NCBI GenBank assembly: GCA_020356065.1
Contig: CP070632.1
Location: 766,656 to 830,655 of the forward strand
DNA from: Nitrospiraceae bacterium
GTDB taxonomy: Bacteria > Nitrospirota > Thermodesulfovibrionia > UBA6902
Direction: 5' to 3'
DNA: 64,000 nt
In this document: positions 5,313 to 32,972 of the stretch, one piece after another
How positions within the stretch are numbered: the first letter of the stretch is position 1
How the letters are laid out: each line of letters opens with the position of its first letter
The notes under the pieces: generated by a model
The model's input: only the letters and a program-made list of their open reading frames with translations
Database searches by the model: none
Told to the model about the DNA's origin: nothing
Translations under genes and position numbers: made by a program

Positions 5313-5384
5313 TCAGATATGCATGGCCATTAATAACAAACCTGTGATTGATCCTATAAAAAGTCCCGGCATAAACAGAAACAT
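5313..5384 (-). CDS. possible 23-residue membrane miniprotein
   Basis: Starting at the ATG at 5384 the frame encodes a hydrophobic peptide containing GLFIGS and ending LMAMHI, with GAAGGGG about 7 nt upstream. The core resembles the 36-residue product of 28868-28978 position by position: both read M-x-L-F, then GLFIGS, then LMAM. That similarity is the main reason for listing it. An in-frame upstream extension to 5501 exists but lacks a ribosome site. It could be a decayed copy. Confidence 0.4.
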   Translation of the reverse strand: MFLFMPGLFIGSITGLLLMAMHI

Positions 5385-25362: not shown

Positions 25363-27657
25363 ATGAAACAGAAGATTATCCTCTCATTATTTGCCCTCTT
25401 TATTTTCCTGGCTGCCGGTACGGTGACAGCTGTGCTTTACATGTCGAATAACACATCTGTTCTGAAGAACATAGTGATGCTTCATGAGGTTGAGCAGTTA
25501 AGGCGTTCTCTGATAATCAAAATACAGAACGTCCAGGCAGACCTTTATACTGTTGATAAGGAGTTTGCCACTGATTTTGATTATATAATAAATCAAGCGG
25601 CTGATCTTGACCAGACTGCCATGCGATGTTCTGGCTGTCATCACTCCCCTGAATTGACAAAGAAGATTCAAAATGTCCAGTCACTCATTAATGATTATGA
25701 AGTTGCTCTCAGTTACTACCTTACCGCATCAGCAAATACCAACAGGATTATTAAACTGAAATCAGATGCAGCTGCGATCGGCAAGAAACTGATAAATCTT
25801 TCGGGCGCCATGTCACACAGCGCCAGTAAAAATCTCGCTGAACTGTCTAATGAAACCATGAGCAGGATGCACCACGTCATGACAATACTGCTCATTACAA
25901 TTGCCATAACTTTCATACTTGGAATACTCGTTGCCATTCATTTGACCAGATCTGTGACAAATCCTGTTAATGAGCTGGTACATGCAACCAGGAGAATAGC
26001 TTCAGGTGAATATGGGGCAAAGATTTCCTTTAAGGACAAAACCGAATTCGGGGAACTTGCCGAGCATTTTAATTCCATGAGCCGAGCAATTAAAGAGGGG
26101 TATGAAAAAATCCATAAAGAAATGGCTGACAGGAAACAGGCGGAAGATGCTTTGAGACTGAGTGAAGAAAGACTGCAAACGGTTTTCAATCAGATGCAGG
26201 ATGTATTTTACAGAACAGACAAGGAAGACAGGATCATATGGGTTTCTCCATCATCTAAAAAGATGTTCGGATATAATTCTGTAGATAATATAATTGGTCA
26301 GAAATTTTCAAATTTGTGTACTAATCCCGAGAAAAAGCAGATTATATTTAACGAATTAATTAATAAAGGAAATATTAAGAATTATGAGTTGGAGATGCTC
26401 AAGAGTGATAACAGTACAATCATAGTTAGCATAAATTCCCATTTTTATCTTGATGAGAAAGGAGAAGTTGCCGGAATTGAAGGGGCGATAAGAGACGTAA
26501 CCGAACAAAAAAAATTGGAAGAGGAACACCGAACGATAGAGAAACTGGAGTCTGTGGGTATCCTGGCAGGAGGAATTGCCCATGATTTTAATAATATTCT
26601 GACTTCCATTACGGGAAATATCTCATTAGCCAGATTATCTCACAGTTCCCGGAAGGATGTATCAGATATTCTTGCTGAAGTAGAAGAGGCATGCGGGAGG
26701 GCAAGAGACCTGACCAATCAGCTGCTGGCCTTTGCCAAGGGAGGGTTTCCAATTAAAAAAATTGTGTATTTAAGAAATCAGATAAAAGATGCCACAAAGT
26801 TTGCTTTGCGGGGTTCTAAGGTGAAGTGTGAGTTTCAGATGCCGTTAGACCTTTGGGCGGCAGAAATTGATCCGGGTCAGATTAACCAGGTCATTTATAA
26901 TCTGGTCATTAATGCGAACCAGGCCATGCCGGATGGCGGAACAATAAATATATGTGCAGAAAATATGGAAGCTGATGAGGTGAGTAACATGCCTCTGGAG
27001 AGAAGGGATTATGTGAAAATATCTGTTCGGGACCATGGTATCGGCATACCGGGAGACCAGGTTCAAAAGGTATTTGATCCATATTTCACGACAAAAAAGC
27101 AGGGCAGCGGACTTGGACTTTCCAGTACGTATACGATTATAAAAAACCATAACGGTCATATTGATGTAGAATCTGAAGAGGGGAAGGGGACTATTTTCAG
27201 AATTTACCTGCCTGCTTCCAGAAAGAAATTGCCTGATAGAGAAATCAGAGACGATGATGTCATTATGGGTTCCGGGAAGATTCTGGTCATGGATGATGAC
27301 CAGTCGGTCAGGGATACAGTGAAAAAAATGCTGTCCCATATGGGATATGAAGTTGAAACGGTAAGGGACGGTACCGAAGCAATTGAACTTTATAACAAAT
27401 GCAGAGATACCGGTTCTCCATTTGATGCGGTCATAATGGATTTGACTATTCGGGGAGGAATGGGAGGCGGCGAAACCATAACAAAACTGACTGAGATAGA
27501 TCCCGAGGTAAAAGCGATCGTGTCCAGCGGATATTCTACAGATACGGTAATGTCCAATTATGAAGAGTACGGATTCCGAGGAGTAATATCAAAGCCATAT
27601 GATATGCATGATTTAAGTACACTGTTGCACCAGTTAGTAAATGGGAAAAAGGGATGA
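25363..27657 (+). CDS. hybrid sensor histidine kinase with periplasmic CxxCH haem motif
   Basis: Membrane kinase of 764 residues. The first membrane helix is at about 5-27. A helical periplasmic domain (28-165) contains CSGCH (residues 89-93), the covalent c-type haem motif, followed by another His. The second helix is at about 171-193, then HAMP, and a PAS domain (265-380). The phospho-acceptor region is GGIAHDFNN (His 407), with the ATPase boxes after it and a C-terminal receiver (ILVMDDD, phospho-Asp in VIMDLT). A PhnD-like binding protein is encoded just upstream. Redox or ligand sensing through haem is inferred. No separate response regulator is adjacent. Confidence 0.9.
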   Translation: MKQKIILSLFALFIFLAAGTVTAVLYMSNNTSVLKNIVMLHEVEQLRRSLIIKIQNVQADLYTVDKEFATDFDYIINQAADLDQTAMRCSGCHHSPELTKKIQNVQSLINDYEVALSYYLTASANTNRIIKLKSDAAAIGKKLINLSGAMSHSASKNLAELSNETMSRMHHVMTILLITIAITFILGILVAIHLTRSVTNPVNELVHATRRIASGEYGAKISFKDKTEFGELAEHFNSMSRAIKEGYEKIHKEMADRKQAEDALRLSEERLQTVFNQMQDVFYRTDKEDRIIWVSPSSKKMFGYNSVDNIIGQKFSNLCTNPEKKQIIFNELINKGNIKNYELEMLKSDNSTIIVSINSHFYLDEKGEVAGIEGAIRDVTEQKKLEEEHRTIEKLESVGILAGGIAHDFNNILTSITGNISLARLSHSSRKDVSDILAEVEEACGRARDLTNQLLAFAKGGFPIKKIVYLRNQIKDATKFALRGSKVKCEFQMPLDLWAAEIDPGQINQVIYNLVINANQAMPDGGTINICAENMEADEVSNMPLERRDYVKISVRDHGIGIPGDQVQKVFDPYFTTKKQGSGLGLSSTYTIIKNHNGHIDVESEEGKGTIFRIYLPASRKKLPDREIRDDDVIMGSGKILVMDDDQSVRDTVKKMLSHMGYEVETVRDGTEAIELYNKCRDTGSPFDAVIMDLTIRGGMGGGETITKLTEIDPEVKAIVSSGYSTDTVMSNYEEYGFRGVISKPYDMHDLSTLLHQLVNGKKG

Positions 27658-27661
27658 CATT

Positions 27662-28057
27662 ATGAGAAGTATGATTGTGCTATTTCTTGTTGTAATAATC
27701 GGGTGTGCATCCATTGGGGACAGCAGACGGATGGATAAGCTGGAGATGATAACTGACAGATACGAGAGTGCTCTCCAATGGGGACAATATGAAACTGCCT
27801 TCATGATGATGAGGGCTGAACAGAATGAGAGGAGCATGACCGGGCCGGATGATCTCAGGAAATTTAAAATTACTTCTTATCGTTTAATACATAAAAGTGT
27901 TGCAGAAAGCGGGAAAGAAGCGAAGCAGATGATAGAGATCAAATATTATGACAGAGACGACATGATCGAGAAAACATTGATTGACAACCAGACATGGACG
28001 TACGATAGAGATACGGGGGGATGGTTTTTATCGAGCGGACTCCCTGATTTCCGATGA
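27662..28057 (+). CDS. small lipoprotein of unknown function
   Basis: About 131 residues with lipobox VIIGCAS. The mature part contains YESALQWGQYETAFMMM and a beta-rich C-terminal half ending in WTYDRDTGGWFLSSGLPDF. This pattern resembles NTF2/SnoaL-like lipoproteins, but I cannot assign a family. The ATG at 27662 follows AAGGG with 8 nt spacing. It begins 5 bp after the sensor kinase stop, so it is probably cotranscribed with the kinase and PhnD-like genes. Confidence 0.7.
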   Translation: MRSMIVLFLVVIIGCASIGDSRRMDKLEMITDRYESALQWGQYETAFMMMRAEQNERSMTGPDDLRKFKITSYRLIHKSVAESGKEAKQMIEIKYYDRDDMIEKTLIDNQTWTYDRDTGGWFLSSGLPDFR

Positions 28058-28065
28058 CCAGATTA

Positions 28066-28641
28066 TTAAGAGTCCCGTATTATCTTTCTTGCTGCAAGGT
28101 ACGCTTTGTTCTTTACAGATTCAAGATATATCCTGACAAGCTCCAGGATGTTTTTATACATAAGATAGTTTGAGGACAGTTCACGGAATAACTCCGTATC
28201 TGTAAATTCAGAAGCTATTTTGTAGGATCTCTGCCCCTGAAGCACGTAATGCTCCGAAAGACGTGCACCCGGAACAACAACCCTGCCAAGAACAAACTCC
28301 CTCCCCCGTTTTCTGTTTATCCAGCAGGGAAACATGCTAAGCATAAAAAGAGTAAAATCACCTATATGTTTATGGACCTGGAACTCCCTGTCAAAGCTGT
28401 CGGCATTCATGAGAATACTGCTTTCACAAAGCATTTCTGCTATGTCCTCAAGTCTGTTTTCTTCAGCATCCCTTATTCTGTAAAGGTTGTCAGAATTAAT
28501 AAAACCGCAGAGGATCTGATCTTCAATATATTTAACTGTTCCGGTACTGTCAGTAGGATTCATTTCCAGTCCAAAATCAAGGGCCCTTTGAAACAGTTCT
28601 CTTAAAGGATGGTCTCTTTCAATGGATTCATTATTAAACAT
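28066..28641 (-). CDS. conserved hypothetical protein, 191 residues
   Basis: Soluble, largely helical protein without signal peptide. Segments such as HKHIGDFTLFMLSMFPCWINRK and GRVVVPGARLSEHYVLQGQRSYKIASEF look conserved, but I do not recognise the family. ATGs occur at 28647 and 28641. AAGG lies 8 nt before the second, which is preferred. It is preceded on the same strand by a 52-residue frame ending inside its ribosome site and a 36-residue membrane peptide, so the three may form a small operon. Confidence 0.7.
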   Translation of the reverse strand: MFNNESIERDHPLRELFQRALDFGLEMNPTDSTGTVKYIEDQILCGFINSDNLYRIRDAEENRLEDIAEMLCESSILMNADSFDREFQVHKHIGDFTLFMLSMFPCWINRKRGREFVLGRVVVPGARLSEHYVLQGQRSYKIASEFTDTELFRELSSNYLMYKNILELVRIYLESVKNKAYLAARKIIRDS

Positions 28642-28651
28642 ATTCATGTCC

Positions 28652-28810
28652 TTATCGGTCTTGAATCATGTACACTTTTTTATCGATATAATCAGGAAAA
28701 AACTTTAGATATGCATATGTATGGAAATCACGCGAACTGAGGAAGTAGATGATTTTTCCCGATCGGGTCAGATGAATAATCAGGACAGGCTTAACAATCA
28801 GACTGCTCAT
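28652..28810 (-). CDS. small uncharacterised protein, 52 residues
   Basis: This frame starts at ATG 28810, closely bounded upstream by two in-frame TAG codons, and ends with TAA at 28654-28652, just before the ribosome site of the 191-residue gene. The product contains GKIIYFLSSRDFHTYAYLKFFPDYID, which reads like a real folded or surface segment rather than random translation. The ribosome site is weak. No family is recognised. Confidence 0.55.
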   Translation of the reverse strand: MSSLIVKPVLIIHLTRSGKIIYFLSSRDFHTYAYLKFFPDYIDKKVYMIQDR

Positions 28811-28867
28811 TACCAGAGTCTGTGATTTCTACTAAAAACCCTGACTGCGTTGAGAAGGAATATGTTC

Positions 28868-28978
28868 TCAGTACGATTTATGCCTCATCATATCTTCTTT
28901 GCGCCCTGATGCCAGCATTGCCATCAATATCATGCCAAATACTGAACCTATGAAAAGACCTGCTGCAAATAATAACAT
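28868..28978 (-). CDS. 36-residue single-pass membrane protein
   Basis: Starting at ATG 28978, the frame encodes MLLFAAGLFIGSVFGMIL, then LMAML and a charged tail with RKEDMMRHK. AGGAGGGG lies 6 nt upstream, an unusually strong ribosome site for so short a frame. It resembles the tiny one-helix proteins grouped as DUF3789, but that link is from memory and not searched. It is the first frame of a same-strand cluster with the 52- and 191-residue genes. A shorter relative lies at 5313-5384. Confidence 0.65.
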   Translation of the reverse strand: MLLFAAGLFIGSVFGMILMAMLASGRKEDMMRHKSY

Positions 28979-29203
28979 TGTTCCCCTCCTTTGTTTAGAA
29001 CAGCTGTTATATGTACACAGACTTAAACAGGAAAAATGCAAGATATGTGCCCGATTAATATTACTTATTTTTATAGAATTATACTTCAGGCAACATAAGG
29101 GAAAAAAGGAGGCAAATCTTTAATTATACAAATAGTTACACGCAGGTCTTAAGACTGAATATTGTTCAAAGTGGCAATACCATGCCATTTTGACATCTAT
29201 CGA

Positions 29204-29977
29204 TTATGTGGTATTCATGCCACTTTTCAGTAGTTTTAAGAGTTCGTCAAAGACTTGACTCGCATTTTCCCTGAAGCATACATCAGCAAGGTTATCTGTT
29301 GGGGTTTGGGTCCGGTTAATATAAATAAGCTTTGCTCCATTGCTGAAGGCCTCTCTCGGGATAGACGCAGCAGGCTCGACCTGCAGTGATGAACCTATCA
29401 TTAAAAGGAGATCGCACGATGCAGCACATTTGAAGGCTCTTATCATTTCCGATTCAGGCATTGACTGACCAAATGATATTGTCGCAGGTTTCACATATCC
29501 TTGACATACATCACATGATGGATCAATTTCTCCCTGCTCAAGCCATGTCTGCACTTCCTCGATAGGCCACTTTTTTCCGCAATCAAGACAGACTGCTTTT
29601 CTGTTTGTACCATGCAGTTCGATAACATTTGAGCTTCCGCTGGCCTGGTGAAGACCGTCTATATTTTGAGTAATAAGGCATTTTAAATTGCTTATTTTTT
29701 CCAGTTCCGCAAGAGCCAGGTGAGCCCTGTTTGGTTTTGCGTCTTTAATTTCTCCGTACAGCTCTTTCTTCATGTTCCAGTACTCAACACGTGCCTTATG
29801 ACTGGAAATAAACTCCTGATATGTGACGATTCTGTACCTGTCCCAGACTCCGCCCTTGCTCCTGAAATCAGAGATCCCTGAATCGGTGGATATGCCTGCA
29901 CCTGTAAAAGCAGCAACGTTTTTGGATAAATTTAAAAGAGTAACCGCTTTTGATAGTCTTTCTTTAAATGAAATCAT
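29204..29977 (-). CDS. cobB: SIR2-family NAD-dependent protein deacylase
   Basis: Sirtuin of 257 residues that removes lysine acyl groups using NAD, releasing nicotinamide. GAGISTDSGISDFR and the catalytic TQNIDGLH (His) are complete. The four zinc cysteines are in CLDCG and CDVC. GSSLQVEPAASIP and the final nucleotide-binding strand are present. It is monocistronic and could counter acylation produced by acetyl- or acyl-CoA synthetases. Confidence 0.92.
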   Translation of the reverse strand: MISFKERLSKAVTLLNLSKNVAAFTGAGISTDSGISDFRSKGGVWDRYRIVTYQEFISSHKARVEYWNMKKELYGEIKDAKPNRAHLALAELEKISNLKCLITQNIDGLHQASGSSNVIELHGTNRKAVCLDCGKKWPIEEVQTWLEQGEIDPSCDVCQGYVKPATISFGQSMPESEMIRAFKCAASCDLLLMIGSSLQVEPAASIPREAFSNGAKLIYINRTQTPTDNLADVCFRENASQVFDELLKLLKSGMNTT

Positions 29978-30065
29978 TTAGAAACAAAGGTGATAGGTTA
30001 TTGGTAAAAATAATAACACAGGATATCTTGAATCACCAATGACCTATTACCCATCAGCAATGACC

Positions 30066-30791
30066 TTATTTATCAATTTTTCTTTTCAAAACGATCAGAA
30101 TAACGATTCCAATGATAAAGAGAATCCCGCCTGTCAATGCCCAGAAGGCGCCGGGTTCCCTGTTCATCTGAAGCAGGGCAGCTTTGTCCGGGTCCGGTCT
30201 GATGTTCTTTACGTTAATATTAAAACCCTGGAATACAGACGGTTTGTTAGGCATTATTGAATTTGTCTGGAGGACCTGATTGTCCTTAGTATATGTGACA
30301 TCGACTGTCCACGCGGTGATATACCCGTAATAGTCAACATTAATATCTATATCATCCACAATTAAAAAAGTTCCTTCTGAAATCTTCAGTACTGTACCTG
30401 CCCTGACTTCTGCTGTTTTCTGATATGCCCCGAATGCACTTAATAAATGAGCTAGGAGCATGAAGATAAAACCTGTATGTATTATCTGGGGTGCAATCAA
30501 CAGAAGCCAGTGAGTGACCTTTCTCTTTCTGATTATGGAATCTACACTGCAAAAGATAGTATTCACGGCAATGACTGCGAGAACTCCGATGATCCCCAAG
30601 AGCCACCAGATGTCCTTTACCGGCTGTTTCCTGATCCAGTCAAACAGGGGAATGGAATGAAGCTGCTGAAATGCCCTATTGCCGGGCATGATAAAGGCTC
30701 CGGCAAAGAACAGAATGAGCAGCAATCCCAGGAACCAGAGGGTTGTGTTCAATGAGAGAAAGAAATTTAATATGTATCTCAGTATTTTCAT
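30066..30791 (-). CDS. resB: cytochrome c biogenesis protein ResB (short form)
   Basis: Membrane component of system II cytochrome c maturation, working with CcsA to deliver haem to apocytochromes. About 241 residues with membrane helices at LSLNTTLWFLGLLLILFFAG, in the middle, and at the C terminus before a basic tail. The ATG at 30791 is chosen; the longer frame to 30875 runs through an extragenic repeat. The repeat's GGAGAGGG supplies the likely ribosome site about 10 nt upstream. It follows ccsA. Confidence 0.85.
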   Translation of the reverse strand: MKILRYILNFFLSLNTTLWFLGLLLILFFAGAFIMPGNRAFQQLHSIPLFDWIRKQPVKDIWWLLGIIGVLAVIAVNTIFCSVDSIIRKRKVTHWLLLIAPQIIHTGFIFMLLAHLLSAFGAYQKTAEVRAGTVLKISEGTFLIVDDIDINVDYYGYITAWTVDVTYTKDNQVLQTNSIMPNKPSVFQGFNINVKNIRPDPDKAALLQMNREPGAFWALTGGILFIIGIVILIVLKRKIDK

Positions 30792-30797
30792 GCTGTT

Positions 30798-30893
30798 AAT
30801 TCCCTCTCCCCTGGCGGAAGAGGGTGAGGGGGGTAAATATAAGCGATCACCCTCACCTGTATCCTCTCCCGTCAAGGGGGGGGAGAATAAAAA
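30798..30893. repeat. CCTCTCCC/GAGGGTGAGGG extragenic inverted repeat
   Basis: Two hairpin-forming segments lie back to back: CCCTCTCCCCTGGCGGAAGAGGGTGAGG, then ACCCTCACCTGTATCCTCTCCCGTC followed by a G-run. Similar elements are common between genes in environmental Gram-negatives. This one lies between ccsA and resB and overlaps the resB leader. Confidence 0.6.
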
Positions 30894-30921
30894 TCCCAGT
30901 TGTTTGAAACGGGTAACTTCT

Positions 30922-31632
30922 CTAAAAACTATGCGAACTCTTCATTAACAGACTCACTCCAAGATATGTAAACAGCACAATGGCAAATCCAACGATGCTC
31001 AGATATGCCATGGGTTTTCCTGACCACCACGGCCTGAGCCGTGCATGCAGCTGGAAACTGTAGTAGACCCACAATATGCTGGTCCAAAGCTCTTTCGGTG
31101 TCCAAACCCAGTATGTGCCCCAGGCCAGGTATGCCCATATACCTCCGAATATCATGGACAGTGTAAAAAGACAGTAACCGATCAATACAGCCCTGTACTG
31201 CAGACCTTCATGCACCGGATCTCTTTCCTTTAGATACATGCTTCCGAGAACCGCTGCAACCCCAAAAAGGGCATAAGACATAAAGGCAAGAACCACATGA
31301 CATTCAAACCAGAATGTCTTCAGGATGGGAGGTAGCGGTGAATTGTGCGCCTTTGAGAGCATGGAAAAAGCCGTGAAAGCGGCTGTTACGACGGCAACAG
31401 AACTTAAAAAAGAATTGCGATTTTTTACAGCAAAGCCAAAGGGAATCGAGAAGGCAGCAATGGATGCTGCAAGGAACGCTATGGTGTCGTGAGGTCCAAC
31501 CAGGGGGAGTCTTCCCAGTTCTGCGCCTCTTGACACTATGTAAGCTGCCTGAAGAATGAGACCAAGAACGAGCAGAGGTCTCTTCCACAGCGCAAAGAGG
31601 TAGGAACCAAAAGACAGAGCGAGTAATGTCAT
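30922..31632 (-). CDS. ccsA: cytochrome c assembly protein CcsA/ResC
   Basis: Haem-handling membrane protein of system II. About 236 residues with several helices. The tryptophan-rich haem motif appears as WGTYWVWTPKELWTS. Conserved histidines occur in FWFECHVV and QLHARLRPWW. It is paired with resB downstream, as expected. The presence of c-type haem machinery fits the CxxCH motif of the nearby sensor kinase. Confidence 0.88.
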   Translation of the reverse strand: MTLLALSFGSYLFALWKRPLLVLGLILQAAYIVSRGAELGRLPLVGPHDTIAFLAASIAAFSIPFGFAVKNRNSFLSSVAVVTAAFTAFSMLSKAHNSPLPPILKTFWFECHVVLAFMSYALFGVAAVLGSMYLKERDPVHEGLQYRAVLIGYCLFTLSMIFGGIWAYLAWGTYWVWTPKELWTSILWVYYSFQLHARLRPWWSGKPMAYLSIVGFAIVLFTYLGVSLLMKSSHSF

Positions 31633-31766
31633 AGGATGGTATTTTACATGTTTTGCAAGTATTTAAAAACGTTGATAATTGAATAATGAAATCTGTATTT
31701 AATAAAGACATATTTCCCTGCAGATATGATATTAAAGAATTATTATAAATTGTCGATTTGTTTATT

Positions 31767-32972
31767 ATGGGAATTCTCAGGAAATTGCAGCTGGGTATGT
31801 TGCTTTTTGGTATTTCAATGGGATGTATCTTTCCTTTTTATGCCAGGTTATTTGTTCATTTTAAGCATGGAATGCAATTTTGGTTTGATATCGGTTGTAT
31901 TATTGCAGGAATTATGGTCGGGGGTTTTTCATACTTTCTTACAAGATGGATACTTGTAAAACAGCTTGCAAAAATAGCGTTGGCCTGCCGGGATATTACC
32001 TCGGGAAAGATTAATACATCAGTCTCACTTGAAAGCCCTGACTCAATAGGGGATATTGCCAATGGTTTTAATATCATGGTCCACACACTTCAGGAATTAA
32101 TACAACGGTTATCTGGTGGAGTTAAGAACATGACAGGCGTTACCGTTGCAATTTCATCCATGAGTGACATACTTGCAAAGACTATTGAACAGGAGGCCAT
32201 GGATGTATCCAATGTTACTGCTGCAACTCACAAATCAGCTGAAACCGTATCTCATATAAGTGATAATTTGACTAAAGCCTGACAATTTTCCAGTGATATT
32301 AATGAACAGGCTGATCAGGCCCGACGAATTCTTGCTGAATCAATGGAAACAATGAAACGGACGAACCAGAGCATGAACAATGCTATCAGACATATGGAAG
32401 AATTAAGCACTCAATCGCATGATATCTCAGAAATAATTTCAATGATCGATGACGTCGCTGAACAAACAAACCTTCTAGCTCTAAATGCAGCAATAGAAGC
32501 AGCACGGGCCGGGGAACATGGAAGGGGGTTTGTTGTTGTTGCTGATGAGGTGAAAAAACTGGCAGAGAAGACATCAGCTTCCACAAAAAAGACAGGTGAG
32601 ATCATTAAGTCCCTTCAAAATGGGGTTGAGAATACGATCACTACGGTAAAAAATCATTGTGACCTCATCATTACATTGCAGGATTCAGTTGATAAGTCAT
32701 CAAAGGCGATGAGTTCCATATATGGGAATGTGGACAATATATCAAAAATCATTAATCAGATATCTGATTCTGTATCGCAGCAAAGTGAAGCATATAAAGG
32801 TATAAATGAGACAATGGAAAAAATAAATATAACGTTTAATGAAATACAGCAGTCTACAAGGCATGTTGCTTCCGAGGGTGACAGTATCAATGAATTTACG
32901 CATTACATGATGTCACTACTTAACAGATTTGAAGACAACAGACATCGGGAAGCAGGTTGCATTGAATCATGA
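31767..32972 (+). pseudogene. methyl-accepting chemotaxis protein interrupted by one in-frame stop
   Basis: Two frames in the same phase, 31767-32282 and 32343-32972, read as one chemoreceptor of about 401 codons with a single TGA at 32280-32282 (codon 172). The N part has two membrane helices with a very short periplasmic loop and a HAMP domain. The C part carries the canonical hairpin [24 protein letters not shown]. The sequence after the stop ([12 protein letters not shown]) continues the receptor heptads. A point mutation or a sequencing error explains this best. Downstream translation could restart at 32343, giving a soluble signalling fragment. Confidence 0.8.

Follow-up and report, generated by a model that had tools for sequence, protein, structure and literature searches.

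The window analysed here is a stretch of 64,000 nucleotides, taken from a single-contig genome of 3.17 Mb (bases 766656-830655); most of the 21 relatives found by name are MAGs that carry the label Thermodesulfovibrionia, Thermodesulfovibrionales, Nitrospirae or Nitrospiraceae. The original prediction described a cluster of three genes on the minus strand, two of them encoding miniproteins, and the list of open reading frames confirms the three frames in that order: p36 (28868..28978), encoding a 36-residue single-helix peptide of a glycine-zipper family; a 52-residue frame (28652..28810); and p193 (28066..28647), encoding a protein of a Nitrospirota family modelled as all-helical. A sirtuin gene (29204-29977, minus strand) lies upstream of p36. 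The AGGAGG ribosome binding site reported ahead of p36 is present (28985-28990, minus strand), in a region conserved in the congeners, and the stop codon of the 52-residue frame does abut the next ribosome site, its TAA overlapping the AAGGA (28649-28653) before the p193 start. The p193 product has 193 residues from the first ATG (28647) and 191 from the second (28641), the latter being the more likely start.

The order sirtuin-p36-p193 is kept in both p193-carrying congeners (G001 and G002); no p193 match was obtained by protein search in the third, G003, whose genome is 78% complete. The DNA and the protein of p36 are kept in both, but the 52-residue frame is kept in neither: tblastn recovers only 27 and 22 of its residues in the two congeners, and the matched stretch in one of them contains an in-frame stop. 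Since p36 is conserved and the 52-residue frame is not in the congeners that keep p193, the locus comprises two genes, not three, each with its own promoter-like element. Conservation of the short frames alongside the 191-residue gene thus holds for p36 within the genus, fails for p36 beyond it, and fails for the 52-residue frame altogether. As many as 118 open reading frames of at least 30 residues overlap 13 kb, and a frame of 52 residues is therefore unremarkable. This one covers the promoter of p193 (TAAAGTTT-N14-CGATAA, 28680-28707, minus strand); it is judged to be a chance reading frame, and it plainly illustrates how a promoter can be mistaken for a small gene.

A single operon, in which two miniproteins and a larger protein work together, would fit the shared strand, the p36-p193 order common to three congeners, and the overlap of the 52-residue stop with the next ribosome site. 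It is nevertheless very improbable: besides the lack of conservation of the middle frame, p36 and p193 have separate promoter elements, and a p36-like core stands beside p193 in only two of 29 other p193 loci (some with short flanks), both of them in congeners. The pairing of p36 with p193 is confined to the genus. The reading of three genes overlooked the promoters, which hold most of the information at this locus.

The sigma-28-type promoter of p193 and FliA

The p193 site differs at one of 15 positions from TAAAGTTT-N11-GCCGATAA. In PMC4183435, the FliA sites given for E. coli tar and tsr read TAAAGTTTCCCCCCTCCTTGCCGATAAC and TAAAGTTTTTCCTTTCCAGGCCGAAAAT, respectively, and the p193 promoter is like them in its elements and spacing; the FliA (sigma-28) dependent accessory motility genes mapped in E. 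coli in the same source are the nearest known kind of gene to p193. Among the literature matches listed, none was, by title, on FliA promoters in Nitrospira.

FliA is encoded in the window's genome (TIGR02479 above cut-off at C1:576618), and the pattern YHAAGTTTN{13,14}CGAWAA gave seven matches there, compared with none for the reversed control. These precede chemoreceptor, prepilin-like, HDOD, SPOR/TPR, protease-like and zinc-ribbon genes and p193 (the names of the genes behind sigma-28-type sites, flagellin included, come from reading the translations); the zinc-ribbon frame is separated from its site by only 7 bp. The flagellin gene has a one-mismatch site, TAAAGATT-N11-GCCGATAA, at C1:586617. 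In four other genomes (G014, G016, G019 and G044) the sigma-28 pattern likewise lies some 190-235 bp upstream of flagellin-domain matches, and over 37 genomes it gave 140 matches against 46 when reversed.

Two observations were made in passing. At L071 (1667-2248) a prepilin-like gene begins 141 bp after TAAAGTTT...CCGATAA; judged by this sequence, it appears to be under sigma-28-type control, which, if true, ties pili to the flagellar sigma factor. Within the window, a chemoreceptor-like (MCP) frame on the plus strand (31758-32972) has one in-frame stop, which cuts it after residue 174.

The site and FliA occur together. In the near set (up to 170 bp scanned upstream), a site with at most two of 15 mismatches was present in 25/25 loci from genomes with FliA and in 0/2 from genomes without it (G008 and G062). 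In the wide set (200 bp scanned; FliA searched in 73 of the 111 p193-positive genomes), a site with at most three of 15 mismatches, a threshold picked after the distribution was seen, was present in 39 of 46 genomes with FliA and three of 27 without. Both sets together (100 genomes) give 64/71 against 3/29 (Fisher p 1.7e-14). The genomes are not independent, and the genus-level figure is therefore fairer: 19/24 genera with FliA and 3/19 without it have the site, one mixed genus being left out (p 5e-5). In these counts L048 and L057 were entered once, as G262 and G129; G062 was included by genome and left out by genus; and G030 (locus L058), which has a site with one mismatch, was left out of the two-by-two table, being a 70% complete genome in which nothing matched FliA_WhiG, the housekeeping sigma factor included. 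On the opposite strand 1/60 upstream regions had a site, and among 1834 strands of 200 bp drawn at random from the near loci, with true sites not removed, 21 had one with at most two mismatches.

The exceptions run in both directions. Seven genomes have FliA and no good site (G186, G246, G299, G238, G309, G188 and G172), the first three of which keep CCGATA with four mismatches in all, and three have the site and no FliA (G138, G339 and G333). Several lineages without FliA carry the p193 gene without the site; such absences would represent losses. The evidence for a sigma-28 promoter of p193 is strong, and because several lineages either have both the site and FliA or have neither, the p193 family is tied to motility. 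Several genomes, including G010, G029 and G035, have FliA without p193, and p193 is therefore not needed for flagella.

The p193 protein family

Protein search recovered homologues of p193 in 27 genomes out of 61; the window's genome is one of these, and the 27 genomes fall within a single family. A profile search gave 111 of the 295 Nitrospirota genomes sampled; the search covered Nitrospirota genomes, plus a GTDB-wide scan that reports close relatives only. Residues invariant in the 47 aligned members include H13, P14, L15, R16, E88, H92, H94, I95, G96, D97, Y134, G138, S141 and Y142, and the motifs HPLR and H-x-HIGD are invariant. One might guess that the histidine/acid cluster binds metal. 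The view that the 191-residue protein has no nameable family was borne out: p193 had no match above chance in Pfam, NCBIfam or PHROGs, nor its relatives in Pfam or NCBIfam, the best single family match of any member being PF25618 (E 0.0014, in one of 47). We know of no E. coli counterpart of p193.

Comparison by sequence with solved structures gave nothing credible, a designed helical repeat being listed at E 0.0032. A first structure model reached pLDDT 72, and a second, built with the 47 sequences, was all-helical (pLDDT 80.2, pTM 0.81). With these models Foldseek returned nothing at an E value of 0.001 or below, and the VIA fold lists held only middling helical arrangements (best Z 5.7, rmsd 3.8, 83 aligned), among whose common helical matches were LGN TPR chains (Z 5.4-5.7). 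None of these fold matches is convincing; p193 may be an all-helical, possibly TPR-like adaptor.

The sigma-28-type control and the all-helical model would also fit a flagellar part or a flagellin chaperone, and one of the first model's many weak matches was to a flagellar export chaperone (1ory_A; Z 4.2, rmsd 3.6, 83 aligned). Such a role, in place of that of an accessory regulator or adaptor, is quite improbable, as lineages without FliA also carry p193, which is for this reason probably not a flagellar part. Two genomes of the family to which the 27 belong, G006 and G008, have the gene and no flagellin-domain match. The neighbours of p193 also argue against it: even the most widespread occur at no more than 7 to 10 of the 29 loci, response-regulator and sensor pieces form the largest cluster, and none of the neighbours read, not all of which were annotated, looked flagellar.

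p36, a dispersed peptide family and its sigma-54-type element

At the protein level p36 is 83 and 78% identical to its counterparts in the two congeners. The three congener pairs give dN/dS values of 0.16, 0.20 and 0.14, in the range of purifying selection, and just over half of the changes fall at third codon positions. The prediction of an easily missed gene for a single-helix peptide therefore stands. With a profile of the three sequences and an E limit of 10, p36-like frames were detected in 42 genomes out of 61; many of these matches are weak. Twenty-five loci were read, L133 and L134 being left out, and 23 peptides were aligned after a non-ATG frame (L149) and a duplicate peptide (L116) had been dropped. 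Their first 23 residues align without gaps, with M1, G7, G11, G15 and M19 invariant, the core of the family being an invariant GxxxGxxxG. We regard p36 as a real gene and a member of a dispersed family of predicted single-helix peptides.

The closest known family is PF12664 (DUF3789), whose Pfam title gives no function and for which the literature search found no paper by name. It has a similar length, a start at residue 1 and a glycine-spaced helix, and 19 of the 23 aligned peptides match it at E up to 1. Ten relatives were scored singly, and two exceeded the curated cut-off of 22 bits (L148, 25.5; L154, 22.7); p36 itself scored 17.2 bits, below that cut-off.

Most p36-like loci have no common neighbour, some genomes have several such loci, and near eight of the 25 lie pieces of sensors and response regulators, which form one mixed cluster. 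A few settings recur. At L150, L158 and L160 the p36-like gene is directly 5' of a small helix-turn-helix gene, of excisionase type by reading; a subgroup from two genera (L148, L151 and L153) lies between genes resembling those for ribosomal protein L17 and an acetyl-CoA carboxylase subunit, and L157 has only the carboxylase side in common with it (neighbour names at these four loci are from reading of translations). The window itself holds a second p36-like frame, of 23 residues (5322-5384, minus strand), beside and convergent with nucleotide-sugar enzyme-like genes; two congeners have the same arrangement with a version of 35 residues.

The small size, the single helix, the multiple loci of some genomes and the general lack of a common neighbour would also suit a hydrophobic toxin of a type I toxin-antitoxin system, present in scattered copies and repressed by an antisense RNA. 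We regard this as improbable: positions 26000-31000 have no Rfam match at gathering score, only sub-threshold ones, and purifying selection together with sigma-54-type control suits a regulator at least as well.

This control is suggested by the element GGGCACATATCTTGCA (29037..29052, minus strand). An alignment of three congeners has GGCAY-N5-TTGC in common, 70-74 bp 5' of the p36 start, with the GG-N10-GC of a -24/-12 element present in all three. RpoN is encoded in the window's genome (PF04552 at C1:388148) and in 60 of the 61 genomes. With at most two mismatches and GC at -12 as the criterion, a sigma-54-type element precedes six of the 25 p36-like loci, compared with a mean of 0.23 and a maximum of three at random places (500 draws); a single gene accounts, through its orthologues, for three of the six, and the remaining three come from G020 (no mismatch), G011 and G005.

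Further upstream, the palindrome TGTCAAAATGGCATGGTATTGCCACTTTGA (29166..29195, minus strand) is a candidate enhancer site. It is conserved among the congeners, and in G002 its symmetry is preserved by compensating changes on both sides. A scan of 41 genomes found nine distinct sites in eight genomes, against two matches to the reversed pattern: three before p36 and six elsewhere. Four of these six have a sigma-54-type element 84-88 bp downstream (the remaining two have none at that distance) and precede two response-regulator genes, a PilZ-like gene and one further gene, as read from translations. These four sites, L172 (G000:C1:2099909-2099937), L168, L164 and L161, are on sequence grounds a candidate regulon of one enhancer-binding protein. 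The distance from palindrome to promoter is 143 bp at p36 as opposed to 84-88 bp elsewhere. The arrangement before p36 resembles the sigma-54 regulome of Desulfovibrio vulgaris, whose promoters, according to PMC4641369, combine tGGcacg/tTGCt elements with upstream inverted repeats; the repeats there have the form yGTCA-N6-TGACr and thus differ in spacing from the palindrome described here, TGTCA-N3-TGNCA...TGNCA-N3-TGA. The main text of a sigma-54 comparison (PMC12316311) contains no word beginning Nitrospir.

A different account places p36 on a housekeeping sigma-70 promoter, with the palindrome as the sirtuin terminator. A sigma-70-like site upstream of p36 (TTAAGA-18-TATAAT, 29123-29152) matches at 10/12 positions and its TATAAT also occurs in G001; the palindrome, directly after the sirtuin stop, could fold as a stem (z -1.8) and end that gene, and the compensating variation in G002 would be expected of a stem too. 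However, TATAAT is not kept in G002 and GGCAY-N5-TTGC is kept in all three congeners; no run of T follows the stem, which is absent from the list of the terminator scan; and the same palindrome precedes sigma-54-type elements elsewhere. This account is consequently unlikely, and the promoter evidence for sigma-54-type control of p36 is moderate, the step from motif to regulation being an inference.

Proposed roles of p193 and p36

The explanation that we consider likely is that of two independent, differently controlled one-gene units that serve surface or motility functions: p193 as an accessory member of the FliA regulon, and p36 as a micropeptide under sigma-54-type control. RNA polymerase with FliA (sigma-28) would start transcription of p193 at the site at 28680-28707, inside the spurious 52-residue frame, and the product would be a soluble, all-helical protein accessory to the flagellar/chemotaxis regulon, whose most likely part in the motile/surface programme is that of helical adaptor or sensor. 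The p36 peptide would be made from its own sigma-54-type promoter once an enhancer-binding protein occupies the upstream palindrome; its single membrane helix may pack through the GxxxGxxxG face, on itself or on a larger membrane protein, and would in this way be a small regulator.

A wider scheme is put forward only tentatively, and we would not expect it to hold in full. The p193 family might be a switch between motile and surface/sessile states, controlled by FliA where flagella are present and placed on other promoters where they have been lost, and p36 might belong to a scattered group of glycine-zipper micropeptides, induced through sigma-54 by a single activator, that adjust membrane proteins at several loci. 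The p193 family offers a way into the Nitrospirota FliA regulon, and micropeptides of the DUF3789 kind emerge as a multi-locus family with a testable regulatory signature.
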